From contig NZ_FLKP01000002.1 of assembly GCF_900087015.1 (NCBI RefSeq), forward strand, positions 1,860,001-1,924,000: a stretch of 64,000 bases of DNA, in the 5' to 3' direction. Under the pieces are notes generated by a model, which saw nothing but the letters and a program-made list of their open reading frames with translations, did no database searches and had not been told where the DNA came from. Both the position numbers and the translations under genes were made by a program. Position 1 is the stretch's first letter. Each line of letters opens with the position of its first letter. This document shows, in pieces, positions 3,867 to 22,372 of this stretch. The stretch is from Christensenella timonensis (GTDB lineage: Bacteria > Bacillota > Clostridia > Christensenellales > Christensenellaceae).

Positions 3867-4715
3867 CTATGCTTCCTTTTTCTTGAAATCCTGGCAATAC
3901 TGCCCTTCATACAGGACATTCGGCTTATTGCGCTTCCTCATTGCAAGGATATAGACCGCACCGATCGCGATCAGGACTATGGATAAGAACTGCGAAACGG
4001 GCATGCCCGGCCACAGCTGCAGCGTGGAAATGCGGATGCCTTCGATCCAGAAACGGCCGATCCCATAGCCGATCAGGTACATGGCGAACACATTGCCGTC
4101 ATGCTTTGCACGCCGCGCATAGATGAGTAATAACGCAAGAACGCCTAAGTCCCACATGCTCTCGTAAAAGAAAGTCGCCTGCACCCATTGGTTGACGATC
4201 ATTTCCGTTCCCGTCCAGCGCTCCTGGATATACACCGCGTACGGGAAAAACTGGAGGTTGGGATCGGTGACCACATTGCCGAACGCTTCCTGGTTGACAA
4301 AATTCCCCCACCGTCCGATGGCCTGCCCTAAAATAAGCCCGGGCGCGCACACATCAAGCAAGCGTCCCAGCGGAAATTTTTTCCATTTAGAAAGGATCAG
4401 CGCGGCAACGATGCCGCCGATGATCGCACCGTAGATCGCAATGCCCCCTTGCCAGACCGCAACGATCTGCTCCGGGTGCTGGGAAAAATATTCCCATTCA
4501 AACGCCACATAATAGATGCGCGCGCCGACAATGGAAAGAGGCAGCGCCAAAATCATAAAATCGATCAATAACTCCGCGGTATAGCCCCTGCGCTTTGCTT
4601 CAAATATGGCGAGCGCCACACCCGCAACGATCCCGCAGGCGATGATGATGCCGTACCAGGCAATATTGAGCCCTTCTATGCCGAACAAATTATGTATTGC
4701 AATGTTATCAATCAT
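3867..4715 (-). CDS. lgt: Prolipoprotein diacylglyceryl transferase
   Basis: 282 residues with about seven hydrophobic membrane segments. It transfers diacylglycerol from phosphatidylglycerol to the lipobox cysteine of prolipoproteins at the membrane. The signature GRWGNFVNQEAFG, with the essential Arg, is present, as are YGAIIGG and GYGIGRFWIEGIR with the second conserved Arg. A plausible client in this window is the solute-binding lipoprotein at 8.6 kb. The gene starts 15 bp after the acyl-CoA ligase stop and precedes pncB. Confidence 0.95.
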   Translation of the reverse strand: MIDNIAIHNLFGIEGLNIAWYGIIIACGIVAGVALAIFEAKRRGYTAELLIDFMILALPLSIVGARIYYVAFEWEYFSQHPEQIVAVWQGGIAIYGAIIGGIVAALILSKWKKFPLGRLLDVCAPGLILGQAIGRWGNFVNQEAFGNVVTDPNLQFFPYAVYIQERWTGTEMIVNQWVQATFFYESMWDLGVLALLLIYARRAKHDGNVFAMYLIGYGIGRFWIEGIRISTLQLWPGMPVSQFLSIVLIAIGAVYILAMRKRNKPNVLYEGQYCQDFKKKEA

Positions 4716-4730
4716 TTTTGCTATGCCACG

Positions 4731-6395
4731 TTATGCGGTTTCGATCTTTGCCGCATCCTTCAAATCCAATTCTTCGATCGCCCACTCGCGCATTTTATAC
4801 TTTTGTATCTTGCCGCTTGCCGTCATTGGGAAGCTGTCCACAAAGCGGATATAACGCGGCGCTTTGAAACGGGAAAGGCCGTTCTTGACGAAATCGACCA
4901 TCTCTTCTTCCGTCGCCGTTTCGCCGTCTTTTAGAATGACGCAGGCAAGCACCTCTTCCCCGTAGCGCTTGTCCGGCACGCCGATCACCTGCACGTCGCG
5001 CACCTTGGGATTTGTGTATAAAAATTCCTCGATTTCGCGCGGGTAAATGTTTTCGCCGCCGCGGATGATCATATCCTTTAGGCGCCCGGTGATCTTGAAG
5101 TACCCGTCCTTGTCCATCGTACCGAGGTCGCCCGTATGCAGCCATCCGTCTTTATCGATCGCCTGCGCCGTCGCCTCCGGCATTTTATAATAGCCTTTCA
5201 TGATATTATATCCGCGGGCCACGATCTCTCCCTGCACGTCAAACGGCGCGTCCTCGCCCGTTTCCGGGTCGACGATCTTCGCCTCTACGCCCGGTATTTT
5301 CTTCCCTACCGTCGCCACGCGCACTTCGATCGGATCCGTCGTCGTCGTCATCGTGATGGCGGGAGAAGACTCCGTCTGTCCGTATGTGATGGTGATCTCG
5401 CTCATATTCATATCGGTCATCGCGCGCTTCATAAATTCGATGGGGCACGGCGAACCTGCCATGATGCCCGTACGCAGCGTGGAAAAGTCGTATTTTTCAA
5501 AATCCGGATGGTCGAGCATGGAAATGAACATCGTCGGCACGCCATGCACCGCGGTACATTTTTCCGTCTGGATCGCGTTCATGACCTTGACCGGGTTAAA
5601 GTGGTCGATCAGCACCATCGTCGCGGCATGCGTATACGAGGCCATAACGCCGAGCACGCATCCGAAGCAATGGAACAGCGGCACATTGATACACAGGATA
5701 TCGTTGGGCGTAAATTTCATGCAGTCGCCGATCGCCATCCCGTTGTTGACGAGGTTGTAGTGCGTCAGCATGACGCCCTTGGGAAACCCTGTCGTACCCG
5801 ACGTATACTGCATGTTAATCACGTCGTGGATGTCCAGTTCGCTTTTGCGCTGCGCAAGCTCTTCCGGGCTCACCTTCTCTGCGAATTCAAACAGATCGCC
5901 CCAGGCGAACATGCCCGGCTTGTCCTCTTTGTCGAGAAAGATCACATTTTTCAAACAAGGCAGCCTTTCCGACTTAAGCTCGCCCGGCTTACATTCCTTA
6001 AGTTCCGGGCACAGGCCGTAAATATGGTCGACATAATTGTTGTCCCTTACCCCCTGCATCATAATGAGCGCCTTAGTATCGCTCTGCTTTAAGAGGTACT
6101 CAAGCTCAAACTGCTTGTAATTCGTATTGACCGTGACCATGACCGCCCCCATCTTGGCGGTCGCAAACTGTGTAATGATCCATTCCGGGTAATTGCTCGC
6201 CCAGATCGAGACCTTATCGTCTTTTTCGATCCCCATGCCCATAAAGCCGCGCGCGACCCTGTCGGTCAGCTCGTCGAACTCCTTATAGGTATAGCGGATT
6301 CCCAAATATGGCGCCACCACCGCTTCATGATCCGGATAGCGCTCCGCCTGTTTTGTGAGCAAATCCCCAATCGTTATCTTCATCAATTCAGACAT
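4731..6395 (-). CDS. AMP-forming acyl-CoA synthetase (fatty/medium-chain type)
   Basis: 554 residues of the ANL superfamily. It activates a carboxylic acid with ATP to an acyl-AMP and then to the acyl-CoA. The P-loop-like motif is YTSGTTGFPKGVMLTH, followed by YGQTESSP, the hinge region GWLHTGDLGTMDKDGYF, ITGRLKDMIIRGGENIYP, and the C-terminal SGKIQKYKMREW with the catalytic lysine. The substrate cannot be read from sequence; relatives act on medium- or long-chain or branched acids. The start MSELMK is chosen because GGGAGG lies 7 nt upstream; a longer frame would include that site. It is the first gene of ligase-lgt-pncB. Confidence 0.9.
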   Translation of the reverse strand: MSELMKITIGDLLTKQAERYPDHEAVVAPYLGIRYTYKEFDELTDRVARGFMGMGIEKDDKVSIWASNYPEWIITQFATAKMGAVMVTVNTNYKQFELEYLLKQSDTKALIMMQGVRDNNYVDHIYGLCPELKECKPGELKSERLPCLKNVIFLDKEDKPGMFAWGDLFEFAEKVSPEELAQRKSELDIHDVINMQYTSGTTGFPKGVMLTHYNLVNNGMAIGDCMKFTPNDILCINVPLFHCFGCVLGVMASYTHAATMVLIDHFNPVKVMNAIQTEKCTAVHGVPTMFISMLDHPDFEKYDFSTLRTGIMAGSPCPIEFMKRAMTDMNMSEITITYGQTESSPAITMTTTTDPIEVRVATVGKKIPGVEAKIVDPETGEDAPFDVQGEIVARGYNIMKGYYKMPEATAQAIDKDGWLHTGDLGTMDKDGYFKITGRLKDMIIRGGENIYPREIEEFLYTNPKVRDVQVIGVPDKRYGEEVLACVILKDGETATEEEMVDFVKNGLSRFKAPRYIRFVDSFPMTASGKIQKYKMREWAIEELDLKDAAKIETA

Positions 6396-6436
6396 ACATC
6401 CGCCTCCCTGAAACCTATTCAAAACTTAACCAATAT

Positions 6437-6465
6437 ATTTTATCAAATAAGTGCTGTTTCCGCAA
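6437..6465 (-). promoter_or_regulatory. Candidate sigma-A promoter for ligase-lgt-pncB
   Basis: Minus strand TTGCGG, 17 bp, TAAAAT, about 42 bp upstream of the ligase ATG. Confidence 0.5.
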
Positions 6466-6481
6466 CCTGCGGCGCAAAATT

Positions 6482-7393
6482 TTAGCGCGACCTAAGGAAG
6501 GTCTGGTACGTTTCGGCAAGCCCCGTATCAAACGGCGTATATCTAAACCCAATCGCTTCGCTGATTTTGTTCCCGTCGTAGAGCTCGTCGGCATCGAGCG
6601 GGAACGGCAGAGGGATATTCTCGCGGTAAACTTCCTCCACCGTGACGTTCCTTCTCTTGAGGGGCCGGCCTGCCAAAGCCCCCAACAGCTCCGTCAGGCT
6701 TTGATACGAGACACGCTCCGGCCCGGCAAGGTTATACGTTTGCCCGTATACAGCCGGGTTCGCCGCGCACCCCATCAGGATACGCGCGATATCCTTTACA
6801 TAGACGAAGGAAAATGCACAGTGTGAATCCACAGGGAACGGGATCTCCCGATCCTTTTCCATCAATTCAAAATAATACGACTCACGCGGCGCATAGTTGA
6901 AGGGCCCGTACACAAAAGCAGGACGCAGGATAGTGTACGCTATCCCGCTTCCTGTACACACTGCCTTCAATTCTTTTTCCAGCAGCATCTTGCCGTACGC
7001 ATATTCCGCGCCGGGATATTGCCCCTGCTCTGTGATCTGCGGCGCGTCCTCCTTTTTCGGAGCGCCCGCAGACGGCGCAAACACGCTGCAGCTGCTGATG
7101 TAGATGTATTGCTTTGTCCCGACCGGCAGGCTTTGCACCGCACTGCGGACATCCCCCGGATCGTACGCGCAAAAATCAATGACCGCATCAAAGGGCACCT
7201 CGCCCGCAAGGGCATCGCGCATCCCCTGCGCATCGTGCCGGTCTGCGCGGATTTCCCTGATTTTCCCATTTTTGAGCGGAAAACGCCCGCGATTCAATAC
7301 GCACAATTCAAAATCCGTTTCACGCGCCGCCAGGATGGAAAACACGCGGCCGATAAAATAGCTTCCCCCGATCACCAATACCCTTGCACCCAT
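6482..7393 (-). CDS. NAD-dependent epimerase/dehydratase family protein (extended SDR)
   Basis: 303 residues. The Rossmann motif is atypical, VIGGSYFIGR instead of GxxGxxG, as in the subgroup close to plant CSP41 and nucleoside-diphosphate-sugar epimerases. The YxxxK catalytic pair is AYGKMLLEK, and AVIDFCAYDPGDVRS follows the cofactor-binding strands. The substrate is unknown. The ATG at 7391-7393 is favoured because AAGGAG lies 9 nt upstream; an upstream GTG would contain that site. It begins 14 bp after the HAD phosphatase, so the two are probably cotranscribed from 8099-8127, which may indicate a shared sugar-phosphate theme. Confidence 0.8.
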   Translation of the reverse strand: MGARVLVIGGSYFIGRVFSILAARETDFELCVLNRGRFPLKNGKIREIRADRHDAQGMRDALAGEVPFDAVIDFCAYDPGDVRSAVQSLPVGTKQYIYISSCSVFAPSAGAPKKEDAPQITEQGQYPGAEYAYGKMLLEKELKAVCTGSGIAYTILRPAFVYGPFNYAPRESYYFELMEKDREIPFPVDSHCAFSFVYVKDIARILMGCAANPAVYGQTYNLAGPERVSYQSLTELLGALAGRPLKRRNVTVEEVYRENIPLPFPLDADELYDGNKISEAIGFRYTPFDTGLAETYQTFLRSR

Positions 7394-7407
7394 ACGCCTT
7401 TTCTCCT

Positions 7408-8067
7408 TCACTGCAGCAGTTCTTCCAATGAACCGACCACCCTGTCCGCAAGGGACAAGTCCTGCTCGCCGGAATCCGGATTCTTAAGACCGATCGCATA
7501 CAGCCCCGCCGCTTTCGCCGCCTTTACGCCTGCGGCGGAATCCTCAATCGCAATGCCCTTATGCGGCTGTACCTCAAGCGCCTCGCAGGCGTTCAGGTAA
7601 ACGTCCGGCGCCGGTTTACCCCGCCCCGCATCCTCCGCGCTCGCGAGCGCATCGAAGTAGTCCCGGATGCCTGCGCTTTTCAAAGACAGCATGATATTCT
7701 TTTTTGACGAGGAAGAAGCGACCGCCAGCTTCCTTTTTTTTGCACTGATCATGCCAACCAGTTCCCTTACCCCCGGCAGCACCGGCGGGTTTTGCGTCGT
7801 TTCAAAATAGCGGGATATCCCGTCCACATAACGCTCGATCAGTTCTTCTACCGAATACGGTATCTGGTACCGGCGTTTGATCTCTCCCCAGCAGTCCTGT
7901 TCGCATTTTCCTACAAAATTCTCATTGTAGTCCCAGGTCTCAAGCTCGCCGCCATACGGCCTTACCATATCGTTCAGGATGTCCATATGGATCGGCTCGC
8001 TGTTGATGATCACACCGTCCAAATCAAAAATAACCGCATCGTAACCTTCTAAAAAATTGTTGCCCAT
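7408..8067 (-). CDS. HAD-family hydrolase, beta-phosphoglucomutase/phosphatase-like
   Basis: 219 residues of HAD subfamily IA. Motif I is VIFDLDGVIINSEPIH with the nucleophile Asp and the DGVI signature of the beta-phosphoglucomutase group. Motif II is AVASSSSKKN, motif III GRGKPAPDVY, motif IV IAIEDSAAG. A helical cap lies between motifs I and II. It could be a sugar phosphatase or a phosphomutase; these cannot be separated by eye. The start MGNNFLEGYD has AGGAGA 6 nt upstream; the frame extends further but without the family pattern. First gene of a two-gene unit with the epimerase. Confidence 0.85.
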   Translation of the reverse strand: MGNNFLEGYDAVIFDLDGVIINSEPIHMDILNDMVRPYGGELETWDYNENFVGKCEQDCWGEIKRRYQIPYSVEELIERYVDGISRYFETTQNPPVLPGVRELVGMISAKKRKLAVASSSSKKNIMLSLKSAGIRDYFDALASAEDAGRGKPAPDVYLNACEALEVQPHKGIAIEDSAAGVKAAKAAGLYAIGLKNPDSGEQDLSLADRVVGSLEELLQ

Positions 8068-8098
8068 TTCTTTCTCCTGTCGTAAATTTCCCTTATCC

Positions 8099-8127
8099 AG
8101 TATAGTGAATCCGCCGCATTTTTGCAA
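8099..8127 (-). promoter_or_regulatory. Sigma-A promoter for HAD-epimerase unit
   Basis: Minus strand TTGCAA, 17-bp spacer, TATACT, 32 bp upstream of the HAD ATG. It lies just past the terminator of the 6S/tRNA unit, as expected for a new transcript. Confidence 0.65.
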
Positions 8128-8129
8128 AT

Positions 8130-8162
8130 AAAAAAAGCCCATGCCATAAAGGCAAGGGCTTG
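8130..8162 (-). terminator. Intrinsic terminator of the 6S RNA/tRNA-Gln unit
   Basis: Minus strand hairpin AAGCCC-t-TGCC / GGCA-t-GGGCTT with a 5-nt loop and a run of seven T. It begins at the CCA end of the tRNA. Confidence 0.85.
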
Positions 8163-8236
8163 TGGCAGCCGAATAAGGATTCGAACCTTAAATGAACGAG
8201 TCAGAGTCGTTAGTGTTACCGTTACACCATTCGGCT
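8163..8236 (-). tRNA. tRNA-Gln (anticodon CUG)
   Basis: A 74-nt cloverleaf with encoded CCA. Acceptor AGCCGAA/TTCGGCT, D stem GTGT/ACAC, anticodon stem AACGA/TCGTT with loop CTCTGAC giving anticodon CTG, T arm TAAGG-TTCGAAT-CCTTA, discriminator G73. All stems pair fully. It lies directly downstream of the probable 6S RNA and is probably processed from the same transcript. Confidence 0.95.
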
Positions 8237-8256
8237 ATCTATAAAATATGACCCAA

Positions 8257-8435
8257 AGTGCCGTACGCTTTGAATCCTAACACCCGCCTCTCGGCAGGTG
8301 GGTATCCTGCTCCCAGCTTTAGGCTTCCTGCGCGCAGCAGACGTGCTCACCGCTGAAAAGACGCTGGATTCCCGGATTTAGAATGTGGGTTTAAAATACA
8401 AAGCATTACGCACACTTCAGGAAATCTTTTTTCCG
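8257..8435 (-). ncRNA. ssrS: Probable 6S RNA
   Basis: The stretch has no ORF but strong structure. Read on the minus strand, the 5' end GTGCGTAATGCTTTG pairs with the 3' end CAAAGCGTACGGCAC as a long closing stem, and an internal hairpin ACCCACCTGC / GCGGGTGTT precedes AGGATTCAAAGCGTACGG. This arrangement and the 3' sequence resemble 6S RNAs of Firmicutes, which mimic an open promoter and bind sigma-A RNA polymerase. A good promoter stands at the right place upstream. Ends are approximate, and the assignment rests on memory of the family consensus, not on a covariance search. Confidence 0.7.
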
Positions 8436-14077: not shown

Positions 14078-15181
14078 TTAACCGATGATCTCGCTTAAAT
14101 AAACGGTACGTTCTTCCTCGATGGATTGATAGCACGCTTCCACACAGGCGATCGTATTCACGTTGTCTTCCGCGCTGATCTCCGGCTGCGTACCGTCTTC
14201 CACCGCGCACAGCAGGTTCGCCATCGTCCCCACGAACGCGTCCGGGAACCACTGCGTATCCCATTTCGGCTCGATCCACTCATCCGGGCAGGATTTACAC
14301 GTCAGCTTTAAGGTGCTGCCCGCAAAACCTTCGCGTTTATGCCAGCCGAATTCACCCTCCGCAAAGCCGTCAAGTCCCTCTACGCGCCAACGGATATAAT
14401 TGTCTTTCTTACAAGGCTTTTCCGGCCATGCCCACACATCGTCGAGGCTCGTAGCCATCATACCGTCCTTATATTGATAAGTAAACTGCACGATGCCGTC
14501 TGTGTGCTCAAACTTTGTACGCGGGTCTGTGCGGCATACTGCGGTGATCTTTTCCGGATCACCGAACAGGTAGCGGAAGATGTCTACATGGTGGATGCCC
14601 ATAGAAAATATCTCCAGCTTGTTATACGCGCGCAAAAAGCCCTGCCAGTCAGGGATCGCCCGCATGTCGATGGTCGCCAATACCGGCGCTCCGATCAGTT
14701 TCTGGTCTAAGATATATTTCATAGCCCGCATGGACTGGTCGTAACGCATGTTGGAATTAACCGCGATGGGTATTCCCGCGTCCTTGCCGAGGCGTACGAT
14801 CTCCCTTGCATCCGCAAGCGACATCGCGATCGGTTTTTGGCACAAAATACCTTTGATGTGTTTTTTGGTGCAGATATATCGAACCATTTCAAGCTGTACA
14901 TGCGGCGGTACGGCGATGTCGATGATCTCGATCTGCGGGTCGTCGACCATATCGTGCCAGTCCCCGTATATCTTCTCAAGGCCGTGCTCGGCGGCGACGT
15001 CCTTACTCTGCCCTAAATCCAGCGAAGTGATCGCGTACGGGTGAAAACCCGCCTTTTTGTAAGCGACAAGATGGCAGTTCTTCACGATGAAGCCCGCGCC
15101 AATGATACCGATCTTATAATCCTTTTTTTGAGGGAGCTTCGGCAGCGTCGCCTCTTCCAGCCTTTTTACCAAATCCTGCAT
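14078..15181 (-). CDS. Gfo/Idh/MocA family oxidoreductase
   Basis: 367 residues. N-terminal Rossmann motif GIIGAGFIVKNCH; the family motif with catalytic Lys is CQKPIAMSLADA; a later helix carries GIHHVDIFRYLFGD with the usual catalytic His region. These NAD(P)-dependent enzymes oxidise or reduce hydroxyl or keto groups on sugars, inositols and anhydrosugars. The start MQDLVKRLEE has GGAGG 5 nt upstream, inside the activase 3' end, so the genes are tightly coupled (1-bp gap). The substrate is unknown. Confidence 0.88.
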   Translation of the reverse strand: MQDLVKRLEEATLPKLPQKKDYKIGIIGAGFIVKNCHLVAYKKAGFHPYAITSLDLGQSKDVAAEHGLEKIYGDWHDMVDDPQIEIIDIAVPPHVQLEMVRYICTKKHIKGILCQKPIAMSLADAREIVRLGKDAGIPIAVNSNMRYDQSMRAMKYILDQKLIGAPVLATIDMRAIPDWQGFLRAYNKLEIFSMGIHHVDIFRYLFGDPEKITAVCRTDPRTKFEHTDGIVQFTYQYKDGMMATSLDDVWAWPEKPCKKDNYIRWRVEGLDGFAEGEFGWHKREGFAGSTLKLTCKSCPDEWIEPKWDTQWFPDAFVGTMANLLCAVEDGTQPEISAEDNVNTIACVEACYQSIEEERTVYLSEIIG

Positions 15182-15182
15182 A

Positions 15183-16091
15183 TTAGCCTCCTATTTGTAC
15201 CGTAAGTCCCATGTTTTCGCCCATTTCCTGATATGGCGTTAACTCTTCTTTTGAAACCATCTTGGCGTCGTCCATCGTATATTTCCAGCCGAGCTGCTCG
15301 TACTTGCGCCGTCCCAGCGTGTGGTAGGGAAGCAAATGGACTGTTTTCACGCCGCATTTTTTTACCAGTCCGAAGATCCCGCGCAGCGATTCCTCGTCAT
15401 AGTTGAAGCCCGGGATCACCGGGGCACGTGCGATGACGCGATCTGCCCCTTTTGAAACCGCGTACGCGAGGTTTTTCAGGATGAGTGGCAAGTCCCCGCC
15501 CACCGCCTGTTTCAGTTTATCCGCATCGTAATGCTTGATATCGAATAAAAAGGTATCAATGTACGGCTCCGCCTCGATAAACTTTTCCTCTGAAACATTG
15601 CCCGTCGTTTCCACCGCGGTGTTAAGTCCCGAGCGTTTCGCCTGTTTCAACAGCTCCAAAAAACCGTCGAACTGGACGAACGGCTCCCCGCCGGAAACCG
15701 TCAGGCCGCCTCCTGTCGTATCATAATAGTCCTTGTCGCGCAGCACGGTTTTTAAGATATCCCCAACATCCATACCGTCGCCCGCATACACGATCGCCCC
15801 TGCCGGGCAGTACCTGCCGCATGTCCCGCATACCACGCACCTATCGCGGTCAAAAACCGGCTTTCCTTCCTGCATCGTGACCGCGCCGTGCGGGCATACG
15901 CGCGCGCATGTGCCGCACATTGCGCATTTGTGTTCCATATAGCGGAGCTGCCGTTTCAATTTTTGTGATTCCGGGTTTGCGCACCACGGACAGAAGAGCG
16001 GGCATCCCTGCAAAAAAACAGTCGTCCGTATCCCCTGTCCGTCGTGTATCGCAAACCGTTCGATCTCTAGTGTTTTTAACTGTTGCGTCAT
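15183..16091 (-). CDS. Glycyl-radical enzyme activating protein (radical SAM)
   Basis: 302 residues. The radical SAM cluster is C30-x3-C34-x2-C37 in GCPLFCPWC. It is followed by the ferredoxin insert typical of activases of non-PFL glycyl-radical enzymes, CAMCGTCARVCPHG and CVVCGTCGRYCPAG, which would bind two more [4Fe-4S] clusters. GGEPFVQ is the usual SAM-binding motif. It abstracts a hydrogen from the glycine of its partner, here certainly the gene 6 bp upstream. The insert argues against a simple pyruvate formate-lyase activase. Confidence 0.95.
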   Translation of the reverse strand: MTQQLKTLEIERFAIHDGQGIRTTVFLQGCPLFCPWCANPESQKLKRQLRYMEHKCAMCGTCARVCPHGAVTMQEGKPVFDRDRCVVCGTCGRYCPAGAIVYAGDGMDVGDILKTVLRDKDYYDTTGGGLTVSGGEPFVQFDGFLELLKQAKRSGLNTAVETTGNVSEEKFIEAEPYIDTFLFDIKHYDADKLKQAVGGDLPLILKNLAYAVSKGADRVIARAPVIPGFNYDEESLRGIFGLVKKCGVKTVHLLPYHTLGRRKYEQLGWKYTMDDAKMVSKEELTPYQEMGENMGLTVQIGG

Positions 16092-16097
16092 GTTTTG

Positions 16098-18389
16098 TTA
16101 TGCTTCCTTATCGTCGTAAAGTACCCTGCTCATCAGTTCCTGCTGGATATCCGGTTCGAGGTCTACGAACACCGCCGAGAACCCGCTCACGCGCACGATG
16201 AGGTTTTGGTGGTTCTCCGGATGCGCGACCGCATCCTCAAGGTCTCCCTTGTTTACCACCGTGACCATCAGGTGGCAGCCGCCCTTTTTAAAATACGTCT
16301 TGAACAGCGCCTTGATCATCTCCCTGTTCTCATTGAACATAGACGGGGAGAATTTGATGTTCTGTACCGAACCGCCGTGGTATTTGGCTTCAAACTTCGC
16401 CAGCGAGTTGAGCATCGCCGTGGGGCCGTTGGTATTGGCGCCGCCCTGCGGGTTGTTGGCCGGGTTCATGTACTGCCCGCTGTAACGCCCGTCAAGGGAA
16501 GCCGCCGTCTTTCTGCCCCATTCCGTATTGAGCTGGTTGTTGGAGATCACGATCAGGAAATACTGCATCCCTGCCGCGATTCCCCTGTCGCGCACGCCCT
16601 GCGAGACAAAATGGTACAGGTCAAGCGCCATGCCGTCCGCGGTATCGAGGTCGTTGCCGTATTTGTCGCATTCCCAGCAATCCTTGCGTATCTGGCCGTA
16701 GCCCTCGAAATTTTTAAGCGCCGCCTCGTTCAGCTCCTTGAGCGTATACTTTTTCGTATCGTATACGAGGTGCTTGATAGCCCACAGCGCGTCCGACGTG
16801 TTGATGTTGCCGTATGTCTCGTTCGTACCGCCGAGGTAGCGTACCCCTCCGTCTAAAAGCGCCTTACCGCGCGCAATGCAGTCGTCCGTCAAAATGCTGG
16901 TGAACAGGAACGATACCTGCTCGTTCATCAGCTTGTACGAATATACCTGCGCGTCGACCGCAAGGTCGAAGTAGTAATTGAGCAGCTCCTTATAGTTATC
17001 GTACAGGTCGTCAAACGTCTTAAACTCGCTCAAAGGTTTGATCTTCACCGGGCCGCATTTTTTCTGCCCGTCCATTGGGTCTACGCCCTCGTTTAGGGTG
17101 ATCGTCAGCAGCTTTAAAAGGTTCATGCACACATTGGGCGTGCCCGTGCTCTGTCCCTGGATGACGAACTCCGTACAGCCGAACGGCACATACTGCTCCG
17201 CAGCCTTCTCGTCTATGCGCATACCGTACATAACGGCAGGCACATTCACATCGTCGTTGTAAAGCGTCGGATAGGTAGCGCCCGCTCCCAGCGCGTCCAG
17301 CGCTTCATCCCAGATCTGGTCGGACATATCCTCCGTGATGCGCAGCGTGAACTGCGGCTCCACATAACGGCAGTTTTTTGCCACTTTCATCGCGATGTGC
17401 AAAAATACATCCGCCGCCTGTGGGTTGCGCCGTCCGCGGCCGCCCACAATGATACGCCCGTTGACCGTCGTCCGGCGGTTTTCGATCATCGTCCATAAGG
17501 ATTTTACATATTCATAAGCTTCATCCTCGGTGATCAGCCCCGTCTTGAGGTCATGCTGCAAAAACGGCCCCATATAGTCGTCCAGGCGGCCGTAGTTGAT
17601 TACGCCCGCCAGCAGCGCATACAGCCAGAAAAGCTGCAATGCCTGGTGGAACGTTTCCGGCTTGTCGGTTTTCACCTTTTCCAGGCTGTCCCAGATGGTC
17701 TGAAGCTCTTTTTTACGCTTCGCGTCCGCGCCTTTCATATGGCGCCACGCCATATTCTGCAAATGCTCCGCGCATGTCACGAACAGGTCGAGGCACGCAA
17801 GCGCCGCCGTATAAAAGTGGTTGTCCGGCGATCCTTTCATCTTCTCCTGTATTTCTTTTCTCAGGCCGCCGATCCCAAGATCGATCAGCTTCTGGTAATC
17901 GAGCATCATACCCGACAGGCGCGCCGTCGCGATCATCGGATAGTTGACGTCGATAAAACGCCCGATGGTATCTTCGGTCAGTACGTCCTTGCAGTAAAGC
18001 GTTTTTACGTCGTGATCGAGCCAGTAATCGTACAGGGCGTCCACACGCTTTTTCAGGCTTTCATCCGCAAGCTCCTCTTTAAAAGCAAGCAGCTTGCTAA
18101 ATACGCAATAGTGCCCTACCCCGCCCAGCGATGTGACGCAGCCAAAACCAATGGGCAAAAAGTCGATCCGCCCGATGATCTTATCCTCCGGTTCTATTTC
18201 GCGAAACAGCGTCGGATAAAGTACTTTCAGGCATTCCACTTCGCGCGTTTCTTTCGCCTGCCCCGTGAACGCCTGATGCGCTGCCGTATACTGTTCCATG
18301 ATCTCTAGTTGTTTTTCAAGTGGTTTTTCGCAGGGAAGTTTTTTACTCACTTCCACATTCTGCGCGCCGTTCACGTCAAATTTTGCCAT
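16098..18389 (-). CDS. Glycyl-radical enzyme of unassigned substrate (dehydratase/lyase type)
   Basis: 763 residues. The C-terminal glycyl-radical loop is RVSGFSAVF with Gly736. The catalytic cysteine is Cys405 in VPFGCTEFVIQG; it is followed by Glu407, giving the CxE pattern of dehydratases and C-O lyases, and lacks the Cys-Cys pair of pyruvate formate-lyase. The length is close to E. coli PflD and below choline or glycerol lyases. The start MAKFDVNG is chosen because AGGAG lies 9 nt upstream; an earlier TTG would include that site. The operon holds a nanE-like epimerase, a Gfo/Idh/MocA oxidoreductase and a TIM-barrel isomerase, so a sugar, polyol or anhydrosugar phosphate is a reasonable guess. 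No microcompartment genes are seen. Confidence 0.92.
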   Translation of the reverse strand: MAKFDVNGAQNVEVSKKLPCEKPLEKQLEIMEQYTAAHQAFTGQAKETREVECLKVLYPTLFREIEPEDKIIGRIDFLPIGFGCVTSLGGVGHYCVFSKLLAFKEELADESLKKRVDALYDYWLDHDVKTLYCKDVLTEDTIGRFIDVNYPMIATARLSGMMLDYQKLIDLGIGGLRKEIQEKMKGSPDNHFYTAALACLDLFVTCAEHLQNMAWRHMKGADAKRKKELQTIWDSLEKVKTDKPETFHQALQLFWLYALLAGVINYGRLDDYMGPFLQHDLKTGLITEDEAYEYVKSLWTMIENRRTTVNGRIIVGGRGRRNPQAADVFLHIAMKVAKNCRYVEPQFTLRITEDMSDQIWDEALDALGAGATYPTLYNDDVNVPAVMYGMRIDEKAAEQYVPFGCTEFVIQGQSTGTPNVCMNLLKLLTITLNEGVDPMDGQKKCGPVKIKPLSEFKTFDDLYDNYKELLNYYFDLAVDAQVYSYKLMNEQVSFLFTSILTDDCIARGKALLDGGVRYLGGTNETYGNINTSDALWAIKHLVYDTKKYTLKELNEAALKNFEGYGQIRKDCWECDKYGNDLDTADGMALDLYHFVSQGVRDRGIAAGMQYFLIVISNNQLNTEWGRKTAASLDGRYSGQYMNPANNPQGGANTNGPTAMLNSLAKFEAKYHGGSVQNIKFSPSMFNENREMIKALFKTYFKKGGCHLMVTVVNKGDLEDAVAHPENHQNLIVRVSGFSAVFVDLEPDIQQELMSRVLYDDKEA

Positions 18390-18429
18390 GCTAATCGCTC
18401 CTTCCAAGTTACGCTCACTCAGTTCGCTT

Positions 18430-19534: not shown

Positions 19535-22372
19535 TTATCTTCTTTTGTATTGCAGCCATCCTGCCGCCAGCGCGATGCACAATCCTGCATTGCCCGCCAA
19601 CAAAGCAAGAGGTATAAGGCTCCTCGTATCCCGCGTCAGCGGGGCTTTGGGACGCGCCTTGCCGCCTTCCTCCCCGCCGTCGCCGCCTGTTTCCTGCGAG
19701 GACGCCGGTTCTTCCTTTTCCCTGACCTCAAAGACGATGTCAGCCGTTTTGGTTCCGTCGGCAGCACTGACCGCCGTTGCCCTGACCGTCCCTTTATGGC
19801 GGGCAGCGAACAGTACGACGCTTTGGCCGCTCTCGCTCACCCTGTTTTTGAGCTCCACCGCGCCGAGGTCTCCTGAAAACTGCCAGTATACCTTGCCGCC
19901 ATTGCCTGACGGCTGCTGCACAGTGGCTGCCGCCACCGCGTTTCCACCGGCCTCAATGCCTGTCGTTTGTGCATGCGCGGCAATGGATATGCCTGTATCG
20001 AACCCGGATCCCGCTTTCAGCAGCACGCTTTCGCTGCTCCCCATTGTTGCAAACGTCCAACAGGTCGGCGGATTCCCTTGGCTTTTTACGGACGTGACCG
20101 CACCGATGTTCCGCAAATCAAACGCCGCAGGCAAAAAAGCAGGCACAGCGCCATCTTCACCGGCAAACGCCCCATTTTGTATTTCCGGCAAAGACATCGT
20201 TTGCATGGTATCCGCCTGCACTCCCGCAGCATCCCCGCCCGTTTCCTCCGTCACGATCGCATCGTCCCCCGCCGCTTCGTCGCAGGCATAAACTTTGATG
20301 CAATTATTGGCGGAAAGCTCTTGTGAAATATCCTGCCATTCCCCGCCGTCTATGCGCAGGAAGCTTTGTCCCGCCTTAGCCGTCGCGCGGGAGGCATAAC
20401 CTGCCGCGGGCCTTTCCAGGGCGGCCGTCACCTGTTTCCCGTCGATGTTTTTCTGCCTTACCGTCACGGAAAATTCCGTCCCCTTTTCCAGCCTGATCCC
20501 TTCCCGCACATCCACCGTATAGTACCCTGCATGCTGATGGACGCCGCTTGCCGCAGGAATCTCTTCCCCGTTGATCCCGATCCAAATATCGTATTCCTGC
20601 TCCATGCCCAATGCGTAAAACGATACGGACTTGAGCGTCTGGCCGGAAGATGCCGTAAAGACATTTTTCGCCCACATTTCGCCGCCCCCAAACGGGGCTT
20701 CCCCATCAATGAACCCGGTATAGCCGTATGGATCGTGCATGTACAACACGTTGACATCCTGTCTGCGCGGCTCTGCCTTCATCACGGCCGCCGGATTATT
20801 CGAAAAATATCCGCTGCAATAGGAGATATAGAAATACCCCTCCTTCCCCCTTGTTTCGCCGTAGCTGTTTTTCGCGAGGAATGCGCCGTCGTATTCAGGA
20901 ACATATTCCTCTCCGCCTACCTGTACCGCAAATTGCTCTTTGGGGATGCTGTCGTCCCAGCCCACGATCGTGACCGCATGCCCCGAACCGTCCGTAAGCT
21001 CCGGCGGATGGTAAAAATATGTTTTGTTTTCCCTGTAATATTCCTCTTCTTCCATGATGCCGCAGTAAAGCGCGCCATATGTATAGATCGCATTTTTATA
21101 ATAGCTATTGTCAAGGGCGTCCATGCGCTGCGGCAGCAGGAGCATGTCCTTGAGGCGGTACGCCGCTATGCCCGTATGGTAAAAGGAATCCGACCGGTCA
21201 ACGATATCATCCTCGGTGTAATAGAGTACATAGGGATCCTGCTGTTCCGTCAGGTAGCCATCCCAGCGCGAGAGGCAGGCCGCCGACGTATAGGCAGCCG
21301 CAGGGCTCAAGATGTCCCCGCGCCGGCCCCGGTCAAAGGCAAATCGTGAATCCGGGTGAAATGCAGCATTCACCAGGTTATATTCGGAAAAATCATAACG
21401 ATCGCTTTCCAAAGCCGATATACTTAATCCATACTCTGCCTTGGAATACGAATGGTCTCCGCTTTTTACCATTACATAATAGGTTCCCGGTGCCAGGTAA
21501 CGCACAATCCTGACATCGGTGCTGTCCATGACAACGTCAATCTTATTCCAATCTCCGTCAAAAAGCCGCAGCTCATACTTATAAAAGAAGCTTTCATCCT
21601 GCGGCTGTGTGAGCACGAGCTGCGTTCGCCCCCCCTGCGGCAAAGCAAAAGAATAATAATCCAGGTCGCTTCCATTCGATATCGTCGCGCGGATATTTGC
21701 AGGAATCGTGATTGGCGCCGCCTCTTTCAGCGTATCGTTTGGTTCGTATGCATCGACGCCGTCCGTACCATACCAGGCCTGCGCTATTTCACCATCCTGG
21801 TAGCCTGCCGCCTTTGCAAATGCGTTGACCTCCATACCATCTGCAATCGTTATAGCATCCGTATACAGCGTTCCCGCGGTAAAGGGATCGGCGCCGTCCG
21901 TGGTATACCATATTTGTGAACCCGGAGTCGTGCAGGCGAGCCCTATCTGGGTACCGTCCGTATAAAAGCCGCTGTCCGGAGCAAAGGTTACCGGCGCGCA
22001 TAATACCTGCGTAAACTGTTGTTCTGTAATATTTCCCGCTTCCGTATCAAGGTATGCGCGCGCTTTCAAAAGAAAACCACCCGCAGTATGCGCCTGCGCG
22101 ATATCCCCCGCTAAAAGCGGCGTATCGGGGTCATATATCTCGCTTGTTTCCGTTGGGTCGGCGCCGTCCAGCGTATATCGAACAACAGCGCCCGGCGTCG
22201 GACATATCAGGTAGATTTCCGTATCGTCATAAAGTGTCCAGGAAGAGGCAGATATTTCTACTTCTTCTACCGTGTTTGGCTGGGCAAATCCCACGCCGCC
22301 GCCCAGCAGCAGGCAACATACGGCCAGCAGGGCCGCCAGACGCATTATTTTGCTTTGCCTTGTTTTGCTCAT
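19535..22372 (-). CDS. Membrane-anchored surface C1 (papain-family) peptidase with permuted catalytic motifs
   Basis: 945 residues. Signal peptide about 1-30; two chitobiase-type beta domains about 38-120 and 125-200, each with YT-DGADP; PPC-like domain about 205-318; papain C-terminal half about 326-545 with catalytic His465 (GHAVTIVGWDD) and Asn502 (FLAKNSYG); lectin-like domain about 570-697; linker; papain N-terminal segment FDLRNIGAVTSVKSQG with Gln765 and the nucleophile Cys771 in TCWTFATMGSSES; Ig-like domain about 795-885; acidic linker; C-terminal TM about 918-938 with KRR. In all C1 peptidases I know the order is Gln-Cys-His-Asn; here it is His-Asn-Gln-Cys. No second Cys motif precedes His465. 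A cell-surface or exported protease role is likely. Own promoter and terminator. Confidence 0.85.
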   Translation of the reverse strand: MSKTRQSKIMRLAALLAVCCLLLGGGVGFAQPNTVEEVEISASSWTLYDDTEIYLICPTPGAVVRYTLDGADPTETSEIYDPDTPLLAGDIAQAHTAGGFLLKARAYLDTEAGNITEQQFTQVLCAPVTFAPDSGFYTDGTQIGLACTTPGSQIWYTTDGADPFTAGTLYTDAITIADGMEVNAFAKAAGYQDGEIAQAWYGTDGVDAYEPNDTLKEAAPITIPANIRATISNGSDLDYYSFALPQGGRTQLVLTQPQDESFFYKYELRLFDGDWNKIDVVMDSTDVRIVRYLAPGTYYVMVKSGDHSYSKAEYGLSISALESDRYDFSEYNLVNAAFHPDSRFAFDRGRRGDILSPAAAYTSAACLSRWDGYLTEQQDPYVLYYTEDDIVDRSDSFYHTGIAAYRLKDMLLLPQRMDALDNSYYKNAIYTYGALYCGIMEEEEYYRENKTYFYHPPELTDGSGHAVTIVGWDDSIPKEQFAVQVGGEEYVPEYDGAFLAKNSYGETRGKEGYFYISYCSGYFSNNPAAVMKAEPRRQDVNVLYMHDPYGYTGFIDGEAPFGGGEMWAKNVFTASSGQTLKSVSFYALGMEQEYDIWIGINGEEIPAASGVHQHAGYYTVDVREGIRLEKGTEFSVTVRQKNIDGKQVTAALERPAAGYASRATAKAGQSFLRIDGGEWQDISQELSANNCIKVYACDEAAGDDAIVTEETGGDAAGVQADTMQTMSLPEIQNGAFAGEDGAVPAFLPAAFDLRNIGAVTSVKSQGNPPTCWTFATMGSSESVLLKAGSGFDTGISIAAHAQTTGIEAGGNAVAAATVQQPSGNGGKVYWQFSGDLGAVELKNRVSESGQSVVLFAARHKGTVRATAVSAADGTKTADIVFEVREKEEPASSQETGGDGGEEGGKARPKAPLTRDTRSLIPLALLAGNAGLCIALAAGWLQYKRR

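Follow-up and report, generated by a model that had tools for sequence, protein, structure and literature searches.

The stretch of DNA analysed here, referred to as the window, comprises 64,000 nucleotides of Christensenella timonensis (contig NZ_FLKP01000002.1, positions 1,860,001 to 1,924,000). On its minus strand, positions 19535-22372 hold a single open frame of 945 amino acids, whose product carries the catalytic residues of a papain-family (C1A) cysteine peptidase. Their order along the chain is His-Asn-lectin-Gln-Cys, as opposed to Gln-Cys-His-Asn in papain: a DFSE stretch at residue 327 is followed by His465 and Asn502, and Gln765 and Cys771 come only behind a lectin-like domain. A reading of the DNA letters by themselves (the sequence-only reading) had taken this arrangement for a circular permutation of the classical C1A domain. 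The order is confirmed by the residue positions, by reversed pieces of the Peptidase_C1 profile and by 16 distinct genes that share it, and the permutation is supported by profile order, conservation and homologues. The protein is very probably a Cwp84-type C1A cysteine peptidase that is secreted and attached to the surface and whose catalytic domain is circularly permuted.

Gene and domain architecture

The Pfam profile Peptidase_C1 scores 47.6 bits against a cut-off of 20.7, with the match split into two stretches. When the genome is searched with the same profile, its positions 81-203 fall at window 20822-21265 and its positions 1-44 at 20006-20134; as both pieces lie on the minus strand, the start of the profile comes after its end along the coding strand. 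A sequence search of the Protein Data Bank (PDB) divides the chain in the same manner, with residues 353-686 matching Cwp84 (E 6.1e-19) and residues 746-790 matching cathepsins S, K and L at their N-termini. Seven cysteines precede His465 (residues 19, 20, 57, 125, 147, 366 and 437), none of them within a CWxF motif, as the sequence-only reading had stated. The Gln-Cys-His-Asn set is complete and the C1 profile cut-off is passed, but the chain order is not that of the papain family, and the protein is therefore described as a permuted variant and not as an ordinary member of MEROPS C1A or Pfam Peptidase_C1. The NlpC/P60-type families (LRAT, YaeF/YiiX) are not among the six Pfam families that match at E up to 1, and NCBIfam returned a single weak and unrelated match (DUF499_antiphage, 14.7 bits, with the cut-off at 1200).

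The domains that surround the catalytic pieces are largely those anticipated (Table 1). The DFSEYNL stretch stands behind a PPC-like domain, whose profile match is slightly below its cut-off, and the lectin-like domain (PF18560) follows directly on the His/Asn part, as in C1-lectin proteins of the Cwp84 type. The bridge between the old ends of the fold had been assigned to the lectin-like domain; that domain does belong to it, and a linker of about 50 residues has to be added. The region behind the Cys helix had been called Ig-like. In the window protein residues ~797-880 have no Pfam match, and the family Big_2 is found in four relatives (L038, L041, L035 and L211), so for the window protein the label rests on its resemblance to relatives.

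Homologues with the same order, for which a search had been suggested, were found with an alignment query, a scan of genome contigs with the single protein having given no match: after removal of duplicates, 16 distinct genes in 15 genomes are permuted, 143 distinct relatives have the canonical order and six more are without a detectable Cys segment.

Table 1. Features of the permuted peptidase gene, with residues of the protein and positions in the window
Feature	Residues	Window positions	Strand	Basis
Signal peptide-like N-terminus	1-30	22283..22372	-	hydrophobic stretch judged by eye
Two CHB_HEX_C_1 / Fn3_assoc domains	~40-200	21773..22255	-	PF13290 and PF13287, two stretches each; best stretch 132-196, outer limits set by the analyst
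PPC-like domain	237-304	21461..21664	-	PF04151, 25.2 bits, slightly under cut-off 25.9
C1 second part, now in front	DFSEYNL (327)-517	20822..21394	-	Peptidase_C1 82-203 at residues 371-517; Cwp84 match
His465 codon	465	20978-20980	-	
Asn502 codon	502	20867-20869	-	
Lectin-like domain	543-696	20285..20746	-	PF18560, 110.4 bits; Cwp84 fold match Z 28.7
Linker from lectin domain to Cys segment	697-746	20135..20284	-	mostly low model confidence
C1 first part, now at the back: FDLR strand and Cys helix	747-790	20003..20134	-	Peptidase_C1 1-44; invariant columns
Oxyanion Gln765 codon	765	20078-20080	-	
Catalytic Cys771 codon, start of its helix	771	20060-20062	-	
Domain behind Cys helix, Ig-like by position	797-880	19733..19984	-	matches same region of several relatives
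Hydrophobic C-terminus and KRR tail	915-945	19538..19630	-	sequence

Structure model of the two halves

AlphaFold2 was applied to residues 321-800 with an alignment of 109 rows. Permuted proteins supplied 11 of them, and canonical proteins, drawn from 77 usable regions and cut in two, supplied 46 for the body and 52 for the Cys segment. The model, with a predicted local distance difference test score (pLDDT) of 86.3 and a predicted template modelling score (pTM) of 0.88, has a Cwp84-like body and a confident Cys helix (771-789), of which Cys771 is the first residue; pLDDT falls below 50 at residues 711-739 of the linker. Since confidence extends over nearly everything but the linker, a detached Cys segment is unlikely in the window protein; a Cys771 far from His465 was the other refutation named by the sequence-only reading. 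With a d0 of 7.8 Å and an assumed error of 20 Å for a detached segment, our own arithmetic allows a pTM hardly above 0.80, so that the value obtained would fit a docked segment.

Comparison by VIA places model residues 2-379 on residues 133-497 of the Cwp84 chain (PDB 4d59) with Z 28.7 and a root mean square deviation (rmsd) of 2.6 over 346 aligned residues, a part that lies wholly behind the Cys116 of Cwp84 itself. Cathepsin S (PDB 6yyp) aligns over 172 residues (Z 9.6, rmsd 3.2). A cathepsin-like fold is thus found for the part that in these enzymes follows the Cys helix, the Cys segment being outside these sequence-ordered alignments. Strand 750-752 of the model has two possible partners, the body and a short linker strand (707-709), and it is not used as proof of docking. 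Beta-sandwich proteins are also among the Foldseek and VIA matches of the lectin part.

The two halves might instead work between chains, with the Cys segment of one molecule completing the His/Asn body of its neighbour in swapped dimers or in a wall assembly. The long flexible linker permits such pairing, which the sequence by itself does not distinguish from docking inside a single chain; however, the single-chain model is predicted with confidence, and a linker of this length should suffice for within-chain docking. Pairing between chains is accordingly held to be quite unlikely.

Conservation and selection at the active site

Gln, Cys and His are present in all 16 permuted genes, and Asn in 15 of them. 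In the filled rows of the 109-row alignment, the canonical members of which had been preselected by profile score, His and Asn are retained in 57 of 57 and Gln and Cys in 63 of 63. Ratios of non-synonymous to synonymous substitution (dN/dS) were obtained by the Nei-Gojobori method for four of the six possible pairs among four Christensenella congeners, the window's own gene being in none of them. Between these congeners the Cys segment has ratios of 0.00-0.08, a rough figure as it is drawn from 44 codons only. The His/Asn part has 0.047-0.057, the lectin domain 0.049-0.081 (three pairs with a defined value) and the linker 0.19-0.28. Constraint is of comparable magnitude on both halves of the active site, far apart as they are in the chain.

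These values bear on the idea that the domain has lost catalysis and survives as a relic with a binding role, in a protein whose working parts are the lectin-like and flanking domains. The large, multidomain nature of this surface protein would suit such a role, as would the Asp that replaces Asn in one relative (L211). Yet Gln, Cys and His persist in every permuted gene, and the Cys segment is under selection comparable to that on the His/Asn part and the lectin domain; a dead relic is considered quite unlikely.

Occurrence of the permuted order

The permuted carriers are five Christensenella genomes, the window's own included, one further member of the Christensenellaceae (G012), Lachnospiraceae and other Firmicutes. 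Within the Christensenellaceae the gene is present in six of the 18 genomes searched, that is, in five of the six of the genus and in G012, where the copy is cut by a contig end. It is the only Peptidase_C1 gene found in five of the six Christensenella genomes; in the sixth, G002, the Peptidase_C1 profile matches nothing at E up to 0.001. The window's genome holds the permuted gene once, a second weak match spanning the CHB stretch only. Among the Lachnospiraceae the gene is carried by Claveliimonas bilis, for which there is a complete genome record, and by two metagenome-assembled genomes (MAGs). Others come from an uncultured Firmicutes genome (two copies), from a Eubacteriales MAG and from G998, G914, G1014 and G843, which belong to the same family as C. 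bilis.

In wider samples the order is rare. A profile of lectin domain plus Cys segment matches 16 of 398 genomes sampled evenly across the phylum, and only the window's own match runs through both parts; in the order it matches 42 of 396 genomes, with the same six running through both. Of 397 genomes from the family of C. bilis, 189 match and at least five are permuted, and in its genus two of 11 match, one of them permuted. The plain Peptidase_C1 profile matches 30 of 299 genomes of the phylum. In fifteen of these the profile matches at least once over its whole length and in normal order, the two reversed pieces appear in the window's own genome only, and the other 14 match in part, so that the order cannot be read from them.

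A misassembly, or a recent local rearrangement that broke a normal gene, could account for the observed order in a single genome. The partial copy of G012 could be cited for it, as an inverted fragment (L003 / L031, G012:C38:47171-47284), 70% identical to residues 352-388, faces the truncated gene at the contig end; this is probably a fold-back artefact of assembly. The same order in 15 genomes, among them the single-contig G001 and G003 and the complete C. bilis record, excludes the error that the sequence-only reading had itself proposed as a refutation, and the long frames are intact and under strong purifying selection between congeners. Misassembly is refuted by these independent genomes and can be set aside with practical certainty: a small set of related genes has inherited the permuted order, which is no sequencing error.

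Phylogeny and a possible trace of a propeptide

Trees were built on the His/Asn and lectin region alone, so the order of the segments does not enter into them. The first contains 112 of the 165 distinct regions: 95 of the 143 canonical ones, thinned by similarity or length, the 16 permuted ones and one of the six without a Cys segment. L176 is counted with the permuted group, its order not being readable as the locus ends four bases past the match. In this tree the permuted group (16 plus L176) requires two changes. The second tree was made without L129, flagged as long, and also without L083 and L076, judged long or odd by the analyst. Here the 17 rows form one side of a branch with a Shimodaira-Hasegawa-like approximate likelihood ratio (SH-aLRT) of 92, which is below the threshold of 95 at which a branch is starred. 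As far as these sequence trees go, a single origin of the permutation is likely.

In the trees the permuted bodies fall among canonical lectin-bearing C1 proteins. Together with the in-register match of both halves to C1A structures, this leaves next to no room for a new family that is merely C1-like and has reached its CWxF motif by convergence, an idea to which the singly weak split Peptidase_C1 matches (25-28 bits in the window's genome) might have lent something.

The canonical proteins also offer a source for the linker. A propeptide profile was built from 35 of them, picked by NPxF- and PxP-like motifs, and it matches the linker of L041 with 19.0 bits, the best of 320 shuffled linkers reaching 6.6. 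Four further linkers (L173, L175, L170 and L171), all from the subclade of L041 in the first tree, score 3.9-5.0 bits, singly no better than the best shuffles; a score of at least 3.9 bits is reached by five of the 16 real linkers and by eight of the 320 shuffles. The other 11, that of the window protein included, score at most 0.1 bits against this profile. A propeptide ancestry of all linkers was tested in this way, and the profile is clear in L041 alone. At the opposite end of the body, a DFSE-like motif starts the body match in 44 of the 77 canonical regions (L037-L110), and in these 44 the Cys-segment match ends 4-9 residues away from the motif; it is the loop between these two points that is open in the permuted proteins.

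Proposed enzyme and its origin

In the proposed enzyme the new ends would lie in the short loop between the helix of the catalytic Cys and the DFSE stretch, and the old ends would be joined through the lectin-like domain and the linker, which is probably a former propeptide. The FDLR strand and the Cys helix would then pack against the His/Asn body, so restoring a site made up of Gln, Cys, His and Asn. The arrangement has probably arisen by tandem duplication or fusion, the first copy losing its propeptide and Cys segment and the second keeping nothing but these, with the propeptide being worn down later in the Christensenella branch. The linker scores in the subclade of L041, and their absence from the other 11 linkers, would fit such a course. 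A chain that runs from lectin domain to propeptide to Cys segment is also plausible from Cwp84, in which the propeptide wraps the lectin-like domain and enters the active-site groove (PMC4089489).

Order, conservation and selection are observed directly, as is the confidence of the model; from there we infer for the window protein catalysis, docking within one chain, secretion and attachment. Attachment to the surface is suggested because the protein has a signal-like N-terminus and a hydrophobic C-terminus; among the relatives, L211 bears choline-binding repeats. In three of the four congeners the chain ends in TGD, a hydrophobic stretch and a basic tail, which presumably corresponds to a sortase signal. 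In this place the window protein has TRD and the fourth congener TND, so that a degenerate anchor signal is possible. The likely role would be to process proteins, either on the cell surface or in the gut. As the Cys helix would reach the outside late, activity may begin only after nearly complete export.

A more speculative view, thought to be rather doubtful, is that the permutation serves as a control device. The bridge derived from the propeptide would keep the enzyme inactive until it is cut after export, giving a two-chain enzyme whose Cys chain is anchored C-terminally to the cell surface and whose His/Asn-lectin chain is held by the fold alone. If this were true, activity would exist only where the anchor is.

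Several points weigh against the permuted, self-docking peptidase and its single origin. An earlier AlphaFold2 model from six permuted rows was poor (pLDDT 41.6), and the case for docking from the later one leans on the conservation of the halves themselves and on the papain folds that AlphaFold2 has learned. The trace of a propeptide is clear in one of the 16 linkers only, and the window protein's own linker scores -1.3 bits. L211 (genome G843) reads CKDSYG, with Asp for the catalytic Asn. For the Cys segment, dN/dS exceeds that of the lectin domain (0.084 against 0.049) in one of the three pairs in which both are defined. In the wider tree L209 and L210 join the long-branched canonical L129, which makes two changes and not one, and the tree that unites the permuted rows excludes L129 and two rows (L083 and L076) that were chosen afterwards.

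Relation to known papain-like proteins

Cwp84 of Clostridioides difficile (PDB 4ci7 and 4d59) shares with the window protein a C1A protease combined with a lectin-like domain, and Gln, Cys and His are kept. It differs in that its propeptide and Cys116 precede His262, whereas the Cys segment of the window protein lies behind the lectin domain (PMC4089489). Other canonical C1-lectin proteins, for example from Lachnospiraceae and from Methanosarcina and Methanobrevibacter (among L037-L110), have the same His/Asn and lectin body and an FDLR...QG...CW segment. In contrast to the permuted proteins, a Cys match (of at least 18.5 bits) stands ahead of the body in all 143, and in the rows compared no segment in front of the body matches CHB or PPC, unlike the window protein.

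A Cys helix behind the His part is also described for LRAT-like and YaeF/YiiX-like proteins (PMC3142127) and for PPPDE (PMC10318531), and LupA is called a circular permutation (PMC10318531), but all of them belong to other branches of the superfamily than the window protein. As permuted PPPDE and LupA are named in PMC10318531, it was already known that papain-like folds in general can be permuted. The same paper places the cathepsins among the groups that retain canonical structures, in agreement with the view of the sequence-only reading that permutations were known from NlpC/P60 relatives and not from C1A enzymes. PMC10380794, on the papain family, has no word containing 'permut'. Likewise, no permuted C1A enzyme appears among the matches listed from open-access titles and the starts of abstracts, a search with subscription papers and preprints outside its scope. 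Within the literature so covered, a natural and conserved permutation within C1A is new, permuted papain-like folds as such being already known.

Such a permutation means that the Cys helix of the textbook papain fold can be delivered from its C-terminal side, and it provides a test case for the rise of new topologies through duplication and fusion. Searches that expect Cys before His may overlook or misread such enzymes of gut bacteria.

Neighbouring genes and variant loci

At window 14078-18407 a glycyl radical enzyme (PFL-like, Gly_radical), a radical SAM protein and a GFO/IDH/MocA oxidoreductase lie side by side, with NanE, DeoR and ROK genes near this cluster; no link to the peptidase was seen.

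Some of the permuted genes of other genomes show peculiarities of their own. Two of them adjoin on one contig of the uncultured Firmicutes (L035:297-4289 and 4231-8349), their limits overlapping because the frames are taken from stop to stop. In L036:3148-7428 the frame stops soon after the Cys motif (SLESCMMK) and the genome-search match continues through one TAA, so that either the Cys helix is where this gene ends or a stop interrupts the gene. The C-terminus of L211 (G843) carries choline-binding repeats. L038:3613-8175 and L212 (G998) have N-terminal extensions with HELQH and YHTNDIHG, respectively. The first of these motifs we take to be metallopeptidase-like; the Pfam matches of L038 at E up to 0.01 include no metallopeptidase. 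The second is presumably 5'-nucleotidase-like. In the genome of Claveliimonas bilis (G795) a permuted gene and a canonical C1-lectin gene (loci L174 and L177/L179) lie about 34 kb apart, and with both orders in one genome a direct comparison is possible.

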